From Bacteroidota bacterium (GTDB taxonomy: Bacteria; Bacteroidota; Bacteroidia; Flavobacteriales; Flavobacteriaceae), in NCBI GenBank assembly GCA_027621505.1, contig JAQCBK010000016.1, forward strand, positions 1 through 33,260: 33,260 bases of DNA, read 5' to 3'. Below, piece after piece: positions 16,958-23,505 of this stretch (positions are counted from its first letter, which is position 1; each line of letters begins with the position of its first letter). The notes beneath the pieces were generated by a model. That model saw nothing but the letters and a program-made list of their open reading frames with translations. It did no database searches and was not told the DNA's origin. The translations under genes were made by a program, and so were the position numbers.

Positions 16958-17010
16958 CTAACATCAAGATTTATCGTTATTATAGGAAATAAATATTGTT
17001 ATATTTGAGT

Positions 17011-17991
17011 GTGGAATTAAAACAGTGCATCCAAGAATTATTGTATCAACACGAGTGTGTTACGGTTCCCAATTTCGGTGCCTTTCTCACGCGTTCGGTG
17101 CCTGTTTTGATTGAGCAAAACTCCGGTGTTTTTAATCCCCCTCGAAAGGAAATCAGTTTCAACCGCCTTTTGACCAGTAACGACGGTATACTGGCCCACT
17201 ACATGGCACAAAAGCAAGGGATTTCTTACGAGCACGCCTTGAGAAAAATTGAAAAAGAGGTGATCGTATGGAAACAACGCTTGAATACCCAGCACTTGTC
17301 TTTTGCAGGCATCGGTGAGATGCGACTCAACCCTCAAAAAAACTTGAGTTTTTTTCCCTATGGAACCGTTAATTTTGACCTGAATGCCTTTGGTCTAAAA
17401 AGTTTTATCAGAAAACCCCTCACCCCACCCAACTTTTACAAAACAGAAGAATCTAAAACCTCACACATCATGGAAAATGAAAACAAAGATGATTTGATGT
17501 TCACTCCATCAGGAAACGAAAACAAACGCACTCCCCTTTGGAGGTATGCCGCCATTGGCGTAATTGGCATCGCAATTGTGGGAGCTTCTTATTATTTCGG
17601 GCAGCAGTATGTTGCGGATGAAAAAGCAAAGGCCACTGAAATGGCGCAGGAGAAAATCAAAAGCAATGTGCAAAAAGCGACTTTCGATTTGGGCAAGTTG
17701 TCTCAAGTTGATTTAAGCATCAACGCCAATCCAGAGGTGATCGGAAATGCCCCCTTGGCGGAGCCTTTGTATAGCGTGATCGCAGGATCTTATCGCTCGA
17801 TGAAAAATGCAGAAAAAAAGCTCGCCCAATTGCAAGCCGAAGGTTTTGATGCCGCGTTTACGGAAATCAATCCCGAGGGACTCCACCGTGTGGCCTACGG
17901 CCGATTCCGTTCCAAGCGCGAAGCATTGAATTTGCACAACTACATCCGCTTCTCACTCAAAGAAGAAGTGTGGTACTTGGAAGAGAATTAA
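17011..17991 (+). CDS. HU-like (CCDC81-type) and SPOR domain membrane protein
   Basis: A 326-residue protein in three parts: an HU-like domain of the CCDC81 type at the N-terminus (C-V-T-V-P-N-F-G-A-F and S-F-A-G-I-G-E-M marks), one membrane helix (about residues 177-197, I-G-V-I-G-I-A-I-V-G) and a C-terminal SPOR domain (about 250-326: Y-S-V-I-A-G-S-Y, A, L, F, then R-V-A-Y-G-R-F). SPOR domains bind denuded septal peptidoglycan glycan strands. The HU-like part faces the cytoplasm if the helix runs in the usual direction. I use GTG at 17011, which places L-K-Q-C-I-Q-E-L-L-Y-Q-H at the N-terminus as in relatives; TTG at 16996 is possible. It is divergent from dprA. Confidence 0.82.
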   Translation: MELKQCIQELLYQHECVTVPNFGAFLTRSVPVLIEQNSGVFNPPRKEISFNRLLTSNDGILAHYMAQKQGISYEHALRKIEKEVIVWKQRLNTQHLSFAGIGEMRLNPQKNLSFFPYGTVNFDLNAFGLKSFIRKPLTPPNFYKTEESKTSHIMENENKDDLMFTPSGNENKRTPLWRYAAIGVIGIAIVGASYYFGQQYVADEKAKATEMAQEKIKSNVQKATFDLGKLSQVDLSINANPEVIGNAPLAEPLYSVIAGSYRSMKNAEKKLAQLQAEGFDAAFTEINPEGLHRVAYGRFRSKREALNLHNYIRFSLKEEVWYLEEN

Positions 17992-17992
17992 A

Positions 17993-19213
17993 CTACATTC
18001 TGTAGATCCAGCCTTTTGGGTTTTGTGGTGTTGAATTGCTGAACACACTAAATTGAATGGTGGTTTTGCCCGTTTGCGGATGGGTGTAGATTTCCCCTAG
18101 GGTCTGTTTGGCCTTCACCTTATCTCCTTTTTTTACATATACCTTGCCTAAGTTTTTATAGGTAGTAATGAAATTTCCATGCTTGATGAGCACCGTGGGG
18201 TTGCTGCCTTTAAAACTGAGAATGGACATAACCTCCCCTTCAAAAACGGCACGGGCCTCGGTCTTGGGTGCCGTGGCGATGGTGACCCCATTGCTTTTGA
18301 TCATGGTGGTTTTTACCACTGGGTGGGGTTGGGTACCAAAGCGCTGAATGACAATGCCTTTTTCTACTGGCCAAGGAAGTTTGCCTTTGTTGGCCATAAA
18401 ATTGGCCGCCAATAGTTTGGCCTCGGGGGTAAGGGCGAAGGCATTTTCGGAGGATTTGCCTGCAGCCTTATTGGAGGCTGCTATGGCTTCGCGAATCAAG
18501 CGGTCGATCTCACGGTCAATGGCCTCAGCCCTCTGTTGCTTTTGCCTGATCTCTACCGCCAAAGACCGCGACTTGCTTTTTAAGCTTTGGATGAGCCTTT
18601 GCTGTGACTTCCGTTCTTGTTGCAGCTGCTCCTGCACCTTACGGTTTTCGGCCACCAAGACTTCTTTTTGAGCTTTCTGTTCCAATAAATCCTGATTCAA
18701 AGACTGGAGCGTTTTGGTCTTTTCGGCAATCTTCTCCCCTTGACTTTTACGGAAATCGGCATACTGCTTCATGTATTGAATCCGCTTGTATGCTTGGAGG
18801 AAATCTTCCGATGAAAAGAGAAACATCAGGCGGTTTTGAGAGGATTTGCTCTTGTAGGATTTTTGAATCATTTCCGCATAGTCCTTTTTGAGGGTTTCCA
18901 ATTCTTTTCTCAGGTTGGTGATATTTCTTTGGTTGACATTGATTTGACGGGTCAAAAGATTGGCCTGCTGATCGTTAATTTTTACCAAATCACTTCGGAC
19001 CGATATTTTTACATTGAGGTCTTCTACTTGCGAAAGAACAGATTTTTGTTTTTTAGTGGTATTAAAAAGCAGGTTGTTGATCTGCTTGATCTCAGCTTGC
19101 AGTCTTATTTTTTGGCTTTCCAAGGACTTTTGCCGAGCTGCATTGGATTGCGCCACACCGAGGATGGGGAGCATCAGTAAAAAGATAACACAGCACTGTC
19201 TTATGCGATGCAT
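17993..19213 (-). CDS. EnvC-like murein hydrolase activator
   Basis: A 406-residue secreted protein: signal peptide (1-21, ending V-A-Q), a long coiled coil (about 25-265, rich in K, Q, E and L with heptads) and a C-terminal LytM/M23 fold (about 290-406). The zinc-ligand positions of active M23 peptidases are lost: N-G-V-T-I stands where H-x-G-x-D-I is expected, and T-I-Q-F-S-V-F where H-x-H is expected, while one His remains in I-K-H-G-N. This is the state of E. coli EnvC, which activates amidases at the septum instead of cutting. It shares one base (TAATG) with the stop of the DUF4292 gene, so translation is coupled, and it is the last gene of the dut unit. Confidence 0.88.
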   Translation of the reverse strand: MHRIRQCCVIFLLMLPILGVAQSNAARQKSLESQKIRLQAEIKQINNLLFNTTKKQKSVLSQVEDLNVKISVRSDLVKINDQQANLLTRQINVNQRNITNLRKELETLKKDYAEMIQKSYKSKSSQNRLMFLFSSEDFLQAYKRIQYMKQYADFRKSQGEKIAEKTKTLQSLNQDLLEQKAQKEVLVAENRKVQEQLQQERKSQQRLIQSLKSKSRSLAVEIRQKQQRAEAIDREIDRLIREAIAASNKAAGKSSENAFALTPEAKLLAANFMANKGKLPWPVEKGIVIQRFGTQPHPVVKTTMIKSNGVTIATAPKTEARAVFEGEVMSILSFKGSNPTVLIKHGNFITTYKNLGKVYVKKGDKVKAKQTLGEIYTHPQTGKTTIQFSVFSNSTPQNPKGWIYRM

Positions 19214-20004
19214 TACATTTCTATTGGTTCGTATCCTGAGGGAATATCAAAGGGGGTACTCAAGCGGTCGGGGAAATCCGCACGGGTATACTCCATATTG
19301 ATTCTTTTTAAATCCTTTCCGTCAAAGAGGGAAATCTGCACTTCTCCTGGAACAAATTCTCCATCTAATTTCTGATGATTTAGATATTTGATGGTCAGAT
19401 TGTTTTTTGTGCCTGGAATCATAAAGCGTTGTTCCAACAGAAGAAAACTGTTGGGATCAAAAAAGAAAGTGGGGCGAAATCTGAGTTTTTGGGATTTGGG
19501 CGTTAGGATATAGTATTTTGGGTGTGATATGGTCTCCCATCGCCCTCTGTTGATATCGGTGAGCGGGAGTCCCATCAAAAGGTTTTGAAGGTCAGAAAAT
19601 TCAAACCTAGAATCGAGTTTTTGGTTGATAAAAGACACATCTCCTTCGAAATAGGTCTTTTGAAATTTTTCGTAAAAAGAAACCTTTTCGGGGGTAACCA
19701 ATAATTTGGCAATGGGAACAATCATATTGGCACTCATCCATATGGATTTGGACTTTTCCATCCGCAGGTTGATGATGATTTGTTGCTTTCTTTTTCCGTC
19801 ATCATAAGTGGTTTTGACACGGGATCTGAACCGTTGGTATCGCAACTGGTTTTTGGTAATGGATTTGGTCAATTCTTTGATTTGGATTTCCTTCATGGGA
19901 GTCCGGCTGGGAGGAAGGGCAGGCGATTTACAAGCCGAAACCAAGAGCATCCCCCCTACCAAAATGAGTTTTAGGCAATTCAGGAAAATTGATTTTGGCT
20001 TCAT
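19213..20004 (-). CDS. DUF4292 lipoprotein, LolA/LolB-like
   Basis: A 263-residue lipoprotein with lipobox L-V-S-A-C (C25). The body is mostly beta: R-F-R-S-R-V-K-T-T-Y, then I-I-I-N-L-R-M-E-K-S-K-S-I-W-M-S-A, then V-T-P-E-K-V-S-F-Y, F-E-F-S-D-L-Q-N-L-L-M-G-L-P-L. This order is typical of DUF4292, and the run of strands with a glycan/lipid-cavity pattern and an L-Q-N-L-L-x-G-L helix also resembles LolB. LolB accepts lipoproteins from LolA at the outer membrane; Bacteroidota have no obvious LolB by sequence. That link is inference. It overlaps envC by one base and lies two bases after the nucleotidyltransferase stop. Confidence 0.82.
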   Translation of the reverse strand: MKPKSIFLNCLKLILVGGMLLVSACKSPALPPSRTPMKEIQIKELTKSITKNQLRYQRFRSRVKTTYDDGKRKQQIIINLRMEKSKSIWMSANMIVPIAKLLVTPEKVSFYEKFQKTYFEGDVSFINQKLDSRFEFSDLQNLLMGLPLTDINRGRWETISHPKYYILTPKSQKLRFRPTFFFDPNSFLLLEQRFMIPGTKNNLTIKYLNHQKLDGEFVPGEVQISLFDGKDLKRINMEYTRADFPDRLSTPFDIPSGYEPIEM

Positions 20005-20006
20005 GG

Positions 20007-21023
20007 CTATGACAATTCTGAATAATCTCCGATGCTAACAAAATGATACTCGCCGTTGTAATGTACGTGATTTCCGATCATGGCGCCTTGTAGCTGTGCA
20101 TTTCGGATCAGGGTGTTTTTTTGAATCAAACTTCCCCCTATGTTGGAGTCTTCTATTCGGGTTCCTGCACCCACTGCGGTATGGGGTCCGACCGTGGTGT
20201 TTTTTAATACCACACTAGGGCCAATATAGCAAGGAGGGAGGATTTGACTGTTTTCCAATACCACATCATCGGACACCAAATTATGGCCTTCTTGAGACAA
20301 AATGTCCAACATTTTGGCATTGGTCTCCAGTGTGATTTTGGGATTGCCACAGTCCATCCATTCTTTGACCGTCCCGGGGGTAAATACTGCCCCTTTTTCC
20401 ATCATGGCCAAAATCCCTTCGTTGAGTAAAAATTCTTCCCCCGCTGCGCGTTCCATTGCCATGGTTTTTTCCAGCTCTTGCTTGATAACTTCCCCTTCTT
20501 TAAAATAATATATTCCAATAACTGCCAAATCGGTAACAAATTCTTGAGGCTTTTCCACCAAAGCGGTGATGTGATTGTCTTCGTTCATTTTTACCACTCC
20601 GTAGGCTTTGGGATTTTCCACCTTTTTGACCCATATCATTCCGTCCACACTGGGGTCTAGCGTAAGATCGGTGCGGATAAGGGTATCGGCATAGGCCACG
20701 ATGATGGGGCCTGATAGGGAATCGGCAGCACACATTACGGCATGACCAGTACCCAAAGGGTCCAACTGTCGGTATATGGAGGCTTTGGCCCCCAGAGCCT
20801 TAGCCACTTTGGTGAGCTCTTCCTCTATAGCAGGGCCAAAAAAGGCGGGGTCTCCCAAGACATAGGCGACTTCTTCTATGGGTTGGGCCACCACCCTAGC
20901 AATTTCATTGACCAATTGAGCCACGATGGGTGTTCCCGCAACAGGCAACATCGGCTTGGGAACCGTTAAGCTATGGGGCCTTAACCTAGAGCCTCTTCCG
21001 GCCATGGGAACAATGATTTTCAA
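20007..21023 (-). CDS. Sugar-phosphate nucleotidyltransferase with C-terminal left-handed beta-helix
   Basis: A 338-residue protein. The N-terminal NTP-transferase domain begins M-A-G-R-G-S-R-L-R-P-H-S-L-T-V-P-K-P (residues 7-24), the GxGxR/PK motif that binds the nucleotide phosphates. The C-terminal 90 residues contain isoleucine/glycine-rich hexapeptide turns (V-V-L-E-N-S-Q-I-L, Y-I-G-P-S-V-V-L, T-T-V-G-P-H-T-A-V-G-A-G-T) of a left-handed helix. It makes a nucleotide sugar (glucose-1-phosphate thymidylyl- or mannose-1-phosphate guanylyl-type); which cannot be decided from sequence. It sits after dut and before the DUF4292 lipoprotein. Confidence 0.87.
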   Translation of the reverse strand: MKIIVPMAGRGSRLRPHSLTVPKPMLPVAGTPIVAQLVNEIARVVAQPIEEVAYVLGDPAFFGPAIEEELTKVAKALGAKASIYRQLDPLGTGHAVMCAADSLSGPIIVAYADTLIRTDLTLDPSVDGMIWVKKVENPKAYGVVKMNEDNHITALVEKPQEFVTDLAVIGIYYFKEGEVIKQELEKTMAMERAAGEEFLLNEGILAMMEKGAVFTPGTVKEWMDCGNPKITLETNAKMLDILSQEGHNLVSDDVVLENSQILPPCYIGPSVVLKNTTVGPHTAVGAGTRIEDSNIGGSLIQKNTLIRNAQLQGAMIGNHVHYNGEYHFVSIGDYSELS

Positions 21024-21059: not shown

Positions 21060-21497
21060 TTACTTCTTTCCCGTGCTTCCAAATCCTCCGCTGCCTCTTT
21101 CGGTGTCGGGAAGCTGATCCACGGGTTGCCACTGCACTTGACTGTATTCGGCAACCACCAGTTGCGCAATCCGATCTTGCGGAGCAATGGTAAAATCCTC
21201 TTGTGAAAGATTGATCAGAATGACACCGATATCTCCCCTATAGTCAGCATCTATGGTTCCTGGGGCATTGAGTACTGTAATGCCGTGTTTGGCAGCTAGT
21301 CCACTTCGGGGTCGAACTTGGGCCTCATGGCCTTTGGGCAAAGCGATGGACAGGCCCGTTGGAATGATTTTACGCTCCAAGGGCGCCAAGGTGATGGGAG
21401 CCTCAATGTGGGCGCGTAAATCCATCCCTGCTGATAAGGGTGTGGCGTAATGGGGCAAATCGCCCGCTCCGGTGTAATGGACAGGAATTGCTGTCAT
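21060..21497 (-). CDS. dut: dUTP diphosphatase
   Basis: A 145-residue trimeric dUTPase with all five motifs: A-G-M-D-L-R (23-28), [10 protein letters not shown] (63-72), [14 protein letters not shown] (76-89), R-I-A-Q-L-V-V (107-113) and [10 protein letters not shown] (134-143, the flexible C-terminal arm). It hydrolyses dUTP to dUMP, keeping uracil out of DNA and supplying thymidylate synthesis. It is the first gene of the dut-nucleotidyltransferase-DUF4292-envC run. On the minus strand TATTTTTG (21519 to 21512) is a possible -7 box only about 8 bases before the leader end, without a -33 partner. Confidence 0.97.
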
Positions 21498-21622: not shown

Positions 21623-22351
21623 TCACATTTTTTCAAAAGATAATTCTTTTTCAATGGCCGCTATCACCCAATCAATCTCCTTTAAACTCATTTTAAAATA
21701 TTCTACAAACAGCCTTTGTTGGGCCGTGGCAGCGGTGAGATGATTCATGAATTCGCGGTCATGCTTTAGGGCTTTGAAATCATTCGGAAACCTTGAATCA
21801 CGGTTTTGACCAGTTTCCAAATGGCGGGTAATCACCGGTTCTGATAACATAATCAACAATTCCTTGCTGCGGTTGCCCTGTTGTTCCAATTCTTTGAGGA
21901 TGTAGTCGAATAGGTAGGTAATTTGTGCTCTGAGGGGATTGTTTTTAATGACCGCACCAGAATTATCCAGGCTTTCGTAGGACGTTCTTTGGCAAAAGAA
22001 AGCATCGTATCGTAAAATTTTTCCGAGAAGCGTGTCATAATCTTGATGGTAATCGGACAGGGGATCTTTGAGTAACGCAATGAGCTTTTGATTCCCGACG
22101 ATTCTCATTGAGTCATTTTTTATGATGTATTGAATTTTGTTTCGATTTTGGTGAAGATCATCATAAATTCCTTTGAGAGTCATCCTTTCTATACTGATGC
22201 CTTTTCTGTTTTCTTTCCAGTTATCAACCTCCAAGGCAAGGAGGATCCCAAACATGACCAAAAAAATCTCTCCAATGCCAATAAGGATGAATTTTTTGGC
22301 GGTTGCGTTTTTGAAAATGGAAATTTTGAGGGTTCTAAGGATGATCGACAT
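21623..22351 (-). CDS. DUF6090 family membrane protein
   Basis: A 242-residue protein starting at the ATG at 22351 (M-S-I-I-L-R-T-L-K). The open frame reaches 22414 only by a TTG that overlaps the sialidase stop, so I prefer the ATG. One membrane helix follows a basic start: F-I-L-I-G-I-G-E-I-F-L-V-M-F-G-I-L-L-A-L, then E-V-D-N-W-K-E-N-R-K, the signature of DUF6090. The remaining 190 residues are helical and charged and carry no catalytic motif. The function is unknown; family members usually occur in Flavobacteriaceae, often in paralogous clusters. It follows the sialidase on the same strand. Confidence 0.82.
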   Translation of the reverse strand: MSIILRTLKISIFKNATAKKFILIGIGEIFLVMFGILLALEVDNWKENRKGISIERMTLKGIYDDLHQNRNKIQYIIKNDSMRIVGNQKLIALLKDPLSDYHQDYDTLLGKILRYDAFFCQRTSYESLDNSGAVIKNNPLRAQITYLFDYILKELEQQGNRSKELLIMLSEPVITRHLETGQNRDSRFPNDFKALKHDREFMNHLTAATAQQRLFVEYFKMSLKEIDWVIAAIEKELSFEKM

Positions 22352-22410
22352 AGGGCTGTTTTTTAATTTCTGGGCCAGCGGATAAAAAATTGCCCCCAAA
22401 TTATAAAAAA

Positions 22411-23505
22411 TCAATCCAGAAGGGCATGTATTTGGGCTTTGCTGATGCGTACAAAACTGTTTTGGGTGTAGTTGTCTTTTTCAAAAACGATCCCCAAGTC
22501 AGCGTTTTCCAATAGGGTAACGGTAGCATAGGCCGCTGGGCCTTGATATATGGTTTTTTGGGCCGACCAGGTTTTACCATCATCTTTGCTAATGCTCAGG
22601 GTAAGATTTTTCCTATTGTGGGGGTCAAAGGCATTGACAAATAGTAAAATTCCCTTGGGTGTCCTGGAATCGTTTGTATCCCAACGAATGATGCCTGCAT
22701 TACAACCCGGGTCGACCAAGTTATAGTCGGGATGAGTGGTCCAAGTTTTGCCCTCGTCCTCTGAAATATAAATTTGTCTGTAGCCTTTTTTGTTAAGTCT
22801 GCAGTTGACCATCCAACTGCCGTCACTACGTTCCACCACTTTGGATTCATCCCCTGGAATGAGGGGAGTGTTGACCCTTTGCCAAGTACGGCCGTGATCC
22901 TCACTTTTGAAAAGGTGAAGACCGTTGTTGAGGTTGACCAAAGTGTGGATTAGGGTTCCCTTTCGGGTTTGAATCCCCCTGCCTGAAGTGATGAATTTAA
23001 AGTCTTTGTGCCAATGGTCAGGAGTGATTTGATCGGTGATGTCTACAGCTTCCGACCAGCTTTTTCCGTTGTCCTCGCTTTTGATGTATTTTAGGTAATA
23101 TACTTGGGGTTCTCTGTCGAGATCCATATAATTAAAAAACAAAAAGATTGTATGGGTCATCCGATCCACGATCATGGAGGGGTCGGAGGCTGATTGGCCC
23201 AAAGGATAGTCTACGAGTCTTTCAATAGGGGTCCAAGTTTTCCCGTTATCACTGCTTCTTTTACTAACTATATTTATATTGTTGTTGTCCCTTAAGTCGG
23301 CACAAGAAGGTACTCTTTCGTCAATGGCAGTGATGAGATCGCCATTGGGAGCGGTTACGATGGCTGGGATTCTGTAACAGGCGATGTCTTCTTTTTGAGG
23401 GAACAGATCTTTAAATTCAAATTCCTGAGCAGGGCTTATGCCAAGGGAAAGGAGGCCAATGGCGAGTGCCAGCTTATTTTTAATCTTTGATTTTTTGTTT
23501 TTCAT
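22411..23505 (-). CDS. Sialidase (exo-alpha-sialidase, BNR repeats)
   Basis: A 364-residue secreted glycoside hydrolase family 33-type protein. A signal peptide (1-27, ending S-P-A-Q) is followed by Y-R-I-P (44-47), whose Arg is the first of the triad binding the carboxylate of sialic acid. Five Asp boxes are visible: S-S-D-N-G-K-T-W, S-E-D-N-G-K-S-W, S-E-D-H-G-R-T-W, S-E-D-E-G-K-T-W and S-K-D-D-G-K-T-W. It releases terminal sialic acids from glycans. It ends without the C-terminal sorting domain of type IX cargo, so it is probably periplasmic. It lies between the membrane acyltransferase and the DUF6090 gene on one strand, with short gaps. Confidence 0.9.
   Translation of the reverse strand: MKNKKSKIKNKLALAIGLLSLGISPAQEFEFKDLFPQKEDIACYRIPAIVTAPNGDLITAIDERVPSCADLRDNNNINIVSKRSSDNGKTWTPIERLVDYPLGQSASDPSMIVDRMTHTIFLFFNYMDLDREPQVYYLKYIKSEDNGKSWSEAVDITDQITPDHWHKDFKFITSGRGIQTRKGTLIHTLVNLNNGLHLFKSEDHGRTWQRVNTPLIPGDESKVVERSDGSWMVNCRLNKKGYRQIYISEDEGKTWTTHPDYNLVDPGCNAGIIRWDTNDSRTPKGILLFVNAFDPHNRKNLTLSISKDDGKTWSAQKTIYQGPAAYATVTLLENADLGIVFEKDNYTQNSFVRISKAQIHALLD

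Follow-up and report, generated by a model that had tools for sequence, protein, structure and literature searches.

A DUF4292 lipoprotein gene that runs directly into a gene for an EnvC-like protein raises two questions: whether the lipoprotein is the LolB of this Bacteroidota bacterium, and whether its pairing with EnvC links lipoprotein sorting to the activation of cell wall hydrolases, as a sequence-only reading had suggested. The two genes lie in a 33,260-nucleotide stretch of a Flavobacteriaceae draft genome (assembly GCA_027621505.1, contig JAQCBK010000016.1), called the window below. Inspection of the open reading frames confirmed the positions and strands proposed for both genes, as well as a stop/start overlap of a single base: on the minus strand, base 19213 belongs both to the TAA of lolB1 (19215-19213) and to the ATG of envC (19213-19211). 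An open reading frame for a nucleotidyltransferase ends 2 bp before lolB1, and a dUTPase frame lies 36 bp further upstream (Table 1); these spacings make an operon with the order dut-NTP transferase-lolB1-envC likely. Scans for promoter-like sites (9 found, 7.6 expected from shuffles) and terminator-like sites (5 found, 6.8 expected) gave values near chance and were left unused, and thus we infer the extent of the transcript.

Table 1. Features of the lolB1-envC locus, in positions of the window
Feature	Position	Strand	Details
dUTPase gene (dut)	21060-21497	-	PF00692; likely same operon
Sugar-nucleotidyltransferase-like (NTP transferase) gene	20007-21023	-	PF00483; likely same operon
lolB1 (DUF4292), outer-membrane lipoprotein gene	19213-20004	-	263 aa; ATG start; lipobox Cys25
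TAATG stop/start overlap of lolB1 and envC	19211-19215	-	read from sequence
envC-like gene	17993-19213	-	406 aa; ATG start; PF01551, E 5.1e-15

The lolB1 product matches PF14125 (DUF4292) with an E value of 2.4e-38 and 132.3 bits, against a cut-off of 23, and the NCBIfam equivalog NF053559, LolB1_Flavo ("lipoprotein insertase outer membrane protein LolB1"), with 188.9 bits against a cut-off of 50; judging by its name, the latter model was probably built on Fjoh_1066, the lolB1 of Flavobacterium johnsoniae. The proteobacterial lolB model, TIGR00548, did not match the window protein. We aligned this protein with 79 relatives (alignment A1, 80 rows), taking only proteins that pass a strict lipobox rule, capping the larger families and leaving out L148 of genome G096, a locus judged doubtful. 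At E ≤ 0.001, a laxer threshold than the curated cut-offs, 78 rows match LolB1_Flavo and 2 match TIGR00548, the best E value for the latter being 8.7e-6. A phmmer search of the PDB with the single window protein returned nothing related-looking, whereas the 80-row profile succeeded, recovering the LolB proteins of Porphyromonas gingivalis (9tpm, 1.7e-16) and Vibrio cholerae (8cm1, 2.7e-6). The window's genome has one PF14125 match, and in a sample of 148 genomes from across the phylum, this one included, 145 carry the domain; among 14 control genomes it was matched in the Bacteroides only. Two of the three PF14125-negative genomes do carry a relative, described below, so that a domain of unknown function in Pfam is almost universal in the phylum (at least 147 of 148 genomes) and yet is its LolB. 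The DUF4292 frame is long in a few genomes; we did not read these cases as fusions, since the longest frame starting with ATG, GTG or TTG was always chosen. Twelve stretches of viral contigs fit a pattern, and none of them encodes a relative.

Structure prediction, which had been proposed as a check against LolA and LolB, gave a model from the 80-row alignment with a mean pLDDT of 91.7 and a pTM of 0.82. In the VIA comparison, by far the nearest entry was the crystal structure of P. gingivalis LolB (LolB-PG, PGN_0994; 9tpm), with a Z score of 23.9 and 221 residues aligned, to the C terminus, at 2.5 Å; this entry is named a DUF4292 protein in the PDB and is 14 percent identical to the window protein over the structural alignment. 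The next scores belong to two proteins that are not LolB, 3bk5 (Z 16.5) and a DUF1329 protein (Z 16.4), followed by V. cholerae LolB and P. gingivalis LolA3 (both Z 16.1), E. coli LolB (1iwm; Z 15.5, 161 residues, 2.7 Å) and Xanthomonas LolB (Z 14.2). The LolA entries 6f3z, 2zpc, 1ua8, 7z6x, 7z6w, 1iwl and 7arm, which we take to be E. coli LolA, score between 10.8 and 12.9. Foldseek also placed 9tpm first (7.6e-13), followed, by E value, by the LolA proteins of Pseudomonas aeruginosa and Francisella tularensis, with E. coli LolB behind them at ranks 6 and 8. The predicted fold is a half-barrel of the LolA/LolB superfamily to which P. gingivalis LolB is clearly nearest. Given the scores of LolA3 and of the non-LolB proteins and the Foldseek order, the fold, 9tpm apart, does not decide between LolB and LolA; the preference for LolB rests on four things: the curated model, the studied orthologues, the lipobox and the match to 9tpm.

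A mixture of LolA and LolB features has already been described for P. gingivalis LolB (PMC13103446), and the window protein could be read as a LolA-like or hybrid carrier, that is, a chaperone that happens to be lipid anchored and has a LolA-type C-terminal tail. The tail itself is LolA-like, since most LolA entries align to model residue 263 and the proteobacterial LolB entries end at 245-246; the level scores of LolA3 and proteobacterial LolB, and the LolA entries that precede E. coli LolB in Foldseek, point the same way. We nevertheless consider such a carrier quite improbable, because a LolB leads the structural matches by a wide margin, proteobacterial LolB proteins (Z 14.2 to 16.1) score above the presumed E. 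coli LolA entries (Z 10.8 to 12.9), the protein has a lipobox, its curated model and its characterized orthologues are of the LolB type, and the NCBIfam matches of the 80 relatives include no LolA family. The DUF4292 gene is best named lolB1, the Bacteroidota orthologue of LolB, an identity that has already been published.

The lipobox reads VSAC, with Cys25 behind a hydrophobic stretch, and provides the lipoprotein signal of a LolB; among the relatives, a strict lipobox rule was passed by 97 of 145 proteins (the window's included) and a relaxed rule by 127, and conservation of the cysteine in A1 is partly due to selection by the strict rule. The helix motif LQNLLMGL (residues 139-146) coincides largely with a model helix at 136-144, has Q140, L143 and G145 invariant in a 10-sequence alignment, and aligns by profile with EQLEDWILG of V. 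cholerae LolB. In the model, a β3-β4 hairpin connects strands 87-93 and 97-103, with I94-V95-P96 at its tip. The tip is hydrophobic in 77 of 80 rows, with a hydrophobic residue followed by Gly in 68 and Leu in 30; the I-V-P of the window is hydrophobic, without Leu and without a Leu-Gly type sequence, whereas Leu is reported at the tip of E. coli LolB, F. johnsoniae LolB1 (Leu74) and P. gingivalis LolB (PMC11885536, PMC13103446). The E. coli and V. cholerae proteins (1iwm, 8cm1) share the fold and hairpin of the window protein but are smaller and lack the C-terminal tail, and the window protein falls outside their TIGR00548 model. The curated profile, the predicted structure, the comparison of folds and the profile search all back the LolB-like family and fold that the sequence-only reading had drawn from the strand pattern, helix motif and lipobox, while its premise that Bacteroidota lack an obvious LolB has been overtaken by two recent studies (PMC11885536, PMC13103446).

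De Smet et al. (2025; PMC11885536) describe LolB1 homologues in all the species that they analysed. In their account of F. johnsoniae, deletion of lolB1 (Fjoh_1066) abolished gliding and lowered type IX secretion of amylase, and the gene restored these functions; LolB1 was exchangeable with Capnocytophaga LolB1, could not replace E. coli LolB or be replaced by it, and was fully functional when not lipidated. The complementation of E. coli lolB that had been suggested as a check has in effect been attempted with this orthologue, and it failed. All five LolA/LolB genes could be deleted with viability kept, and the quintuple mutant is described as still displaying a reporter lipoprotein at the surface (PMC11885536). 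F. johnsoniae LolB1 is, like the window protein, a lipoprotein with a cysteine near its start (residue 17 there, 25 here), and the two have an extra C-terminal region in common. Jaiman et al. (2026; PMC13103446) solved the structure of P. gingivalis LolB and measured its binding to LolA; they describe fimbrial proteins as unaffected by loss of LolB. The functional evidence all comes from orthologues; by analogy, the window protein would bind a LolA and its loss would cause a sorting phenotype. Orthology and fold give good support to a role as the probable outer-membrane receptor of a subset of lipoproteins. A literature search for DUF4292 alone found no paper, the word EnvC is absent from the main texts of PMC11885536 and PMC13103446, and a search by title beyond these two papers found no published report of lolB1-envC linkage. 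The linkage is the part that we did not find in print, the LolB identity having been published beforehand.

The downstream protein has the layout of EnvC: an N terminus that resembles a signal peptide by eye, a coiled coil and a C-terminal LytM domain, with helices at residues 2-125 and 138-250 and a β domain from residue 286 in the predicted model. Among solved chains, phmmer found 8i6o and 8tzk, named only metallopeptidase and peptidase M23, plus the EnvC entries 4bh5 and 8c0j, and the first four Foldseek matches of the model are all EnvC (8tzl, 6tpi, 4bh5 and 8c0j). Superposition of the full-length model on solved EnvC was poor (TM 0.33), but the LytM domain alone superposed well, at TM 0.84 to 0.86 of the target (0.86 of 4bh5). 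The long helices and degenerate LytM domain are those of EnvC; in contrast to EnvC, the window protein is encoded beside lolB1 and scores 44.7 bits on the EnvC equivalog NF008644/PRK11637, far short of its cut-off of 270.

An M23 endopeptidase that cuts the wall itself, instead of activating an amidase, would also give the PF01551 match, which is above its cut-off, and part of the catalytic set is retained in related proteins: among 102 aligned rows, His occupies the column of Q387 in 35 and Asp the column of T311 in 41. The EnvC alignment (A3) comprised the window protein and 68 of the other 94 EnvC proteins, after frames longer than 1500 bases had been removed and families capped. In the window protein, however, the active-site columns, which we assigned from the usual M23 motif, contain S307, T311, N354 and Q387, and only H345 of the usual set is left, so that the LytM site is catalytically degenerate, as in EnvC. 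Together with the four leading EnvC matches, this makes an active endopeptidase a most improbable reading, and an FtsEX-controlled amidase activator most likely describes the gene.

Candidates for the partners of both proteins are present in the window's genome. One LolA_2 match (PF16584, 1.5e-7) was found, and PF03548 (LolA) had no match in this draft; the draft is 86 percent complete, so absences mean little. There is one FtsX_ECD match and one Amidase_3 gene (L032:1147-2301, minus strand), whose catalytic domain can be aligned with AmiA and AmiC chains without a break, even across an inserted stretch. The C-terminal tail of this amidase looks SPOR-like by eye, and Pfam gives no SPOR match there.

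We next consider how widely the pair is kept. The surroundings of lolB1 were fetched for the 144 other PF14125-positive genomes, giving 145 neighbourhoods with the window. In 95 of these, from 24 of 33 families, the open reading frame directly after lolB1 matches an EnvC profile. Three genomes add to this count: in G082, envC follows lolB1 but is truncated where the contig stops, while G127 and G139, both without a PF14125 match, encode LolB1 relatives by the A1 profile (8.7e-60 and 4.6e-53) that overlap envC by 4 bases and score below the LolB1_Flavo cut-off (36.4 and 34.6 bits). In total, lolB1 was located in 147 genomes, and in 98 of them envC is the next gene downstream. The loci of G127 and G139 (L265 and L266) also show that clear family members can escape the Pfam DUF4292 model and yet be recovered with a wider profile, and in both a frame that resembles TPR proteins by eye overlaps the start of the DUF4292 frame. 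An ATG start could not be picked in 12 of the 95 pairs; of the other 83, 54 have overlapping genes. A Flavobacteriaceae-type query recovered at least 455 relatives; in the named loci of the best 80, the two genes were adjacent in 79, and the remaining locus was cut by a contig end. The other neighbours tested are rarer and stay local, with the NTP transferase in 18 and the dUTPase in 23 of 145 neighbourhoods (upstream neighbours were sought within the roughly 3.5 kb fetched, less at contig ends) and a HU-CCDC81/SPOR gene in 9. The adjacency of lolB1 and envC is not due to chance. Linkage was not seen in 49 of 147 genomes, among them all 30 of family f15 (G121, where the contig ends, could not be judged). 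An EnvC-profile match occurs somewhere in 147 of 148 genomes, although the profile also picks other M23 proteins and most genomes have several matches; neither gene, it follows, needs the linkage.

In 11 of the 145 genomes, from five families (f20, f22, f25, f30 and f31), envC is not found after the DUF4292 gene and an LptD-type frame follows directly, at a distance of -4 to +35 bases (loci L119, L146, L150, L151, L152, L158, L163, L165, L169, L173 and L178). PF19838 (LptD_2) was confirmed in all four of these neighbours that were tested, and the other seven calls rest on an iterated HMM. The DUF4292 proteins of these loci may be divergent, since three of five fall below the LolB1_Flavo cut-off (the other two pass) and six of 11 fail the relaxed lipobox rule. 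These lineages raise the question of whether LolB-type proteins serve the lipopolysaccharide machine.

As a whole, the locus is very probably explained by a LolB1 lipoprotein receptor and an EnvC-type amidase activator made from one message. With Cys25 as its anchor in the outer membrane, LolB1 would accept a subset of lipoproteins from a LolA-type chaperone of the periplasm, binding their acyl chains in its hydrophobic half-barrel; the β3-β4 hairpin, with its hydrophobic tip around I94-V95-P96, could help to release these chains into the membrane. The catalytically degenerate LytM protein would most likely be held by FtsEX and most likely switch on the AmiA/AmiC-type amidase of the genome at division. 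Translation of lolB1 and envC from one message is most likely, and that the two proteins are made together is plausible from the gene overlap and its conservation. The conserved pairing suggests that the two genes are expressed jointly, not that their products act together. A role for LolB1 itself in wall hydrolysis, which the sequence-only reading had entertained, is unsupported; only the EnvC neighbour fits it.

Short gene overlaps are common in compact operons, and the junction of lolB1 and envC may be ancestral operon packing only, with lipoprotein insertion functionally unconnected to septal wall cleavage. We lean somewhat toward this explanation, which agrees with the 49 genomes in which the linkage was not seen although EnvC-profile matches are nearly universal, and with the wild-type shape of the F. 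johnsoniae lolB1 mutant in rich medium, an observation that does not favour a link between lipoproteins and the wall (PMC11885536). Packing fits less well with a pair that spans 24 families and outlasts its NTP transferase, dUTPase and HU-SPOR neighbours. According to the same report, the lolB1 mutant forms abnormal cells when the medium is poor, and the outer membranes of lolA1 and lolB1 mutants contain less of a peptidoglycan hydrolase (PMC11885536); both would be compatible with such a link. It is conceivable, though unlikely, that the lolB1-envC unit ties lipoprotein insertion to septal peptidoglycan cleavage, for instance through delivery of lipoproteins to the sites at which EnvC opens the wall, or through contact between LolB1 and EnvC; the lptD pairing elsewhere would then make LolB1 a general outer-membrane assembly factor, encoded beside whichever envelope machine needs timing with it. 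Whether insertion and septal cleavage are timed together in Bacteroidota is a question for which the conserved pair offers a cheap lead.

Two further features of the window deserve mention. A gene with HU-CCDC81 and SPOR domains (16996-17991, plus strand) is convergent with envC, a single base separating their stop codons; SPOR domains bind glycans trimmed by amidases. All nine neighbourhoods with such a gene on the opposite strand downstream belong to the window's family, and in the eight besides the window's it lies at least 574 bases away. On the other side of the locus, a frame that looks sialidase-like by eye (22411-23505, minus strand) overlaps a DUF6090 frame (21623-22414) by 4 bases.
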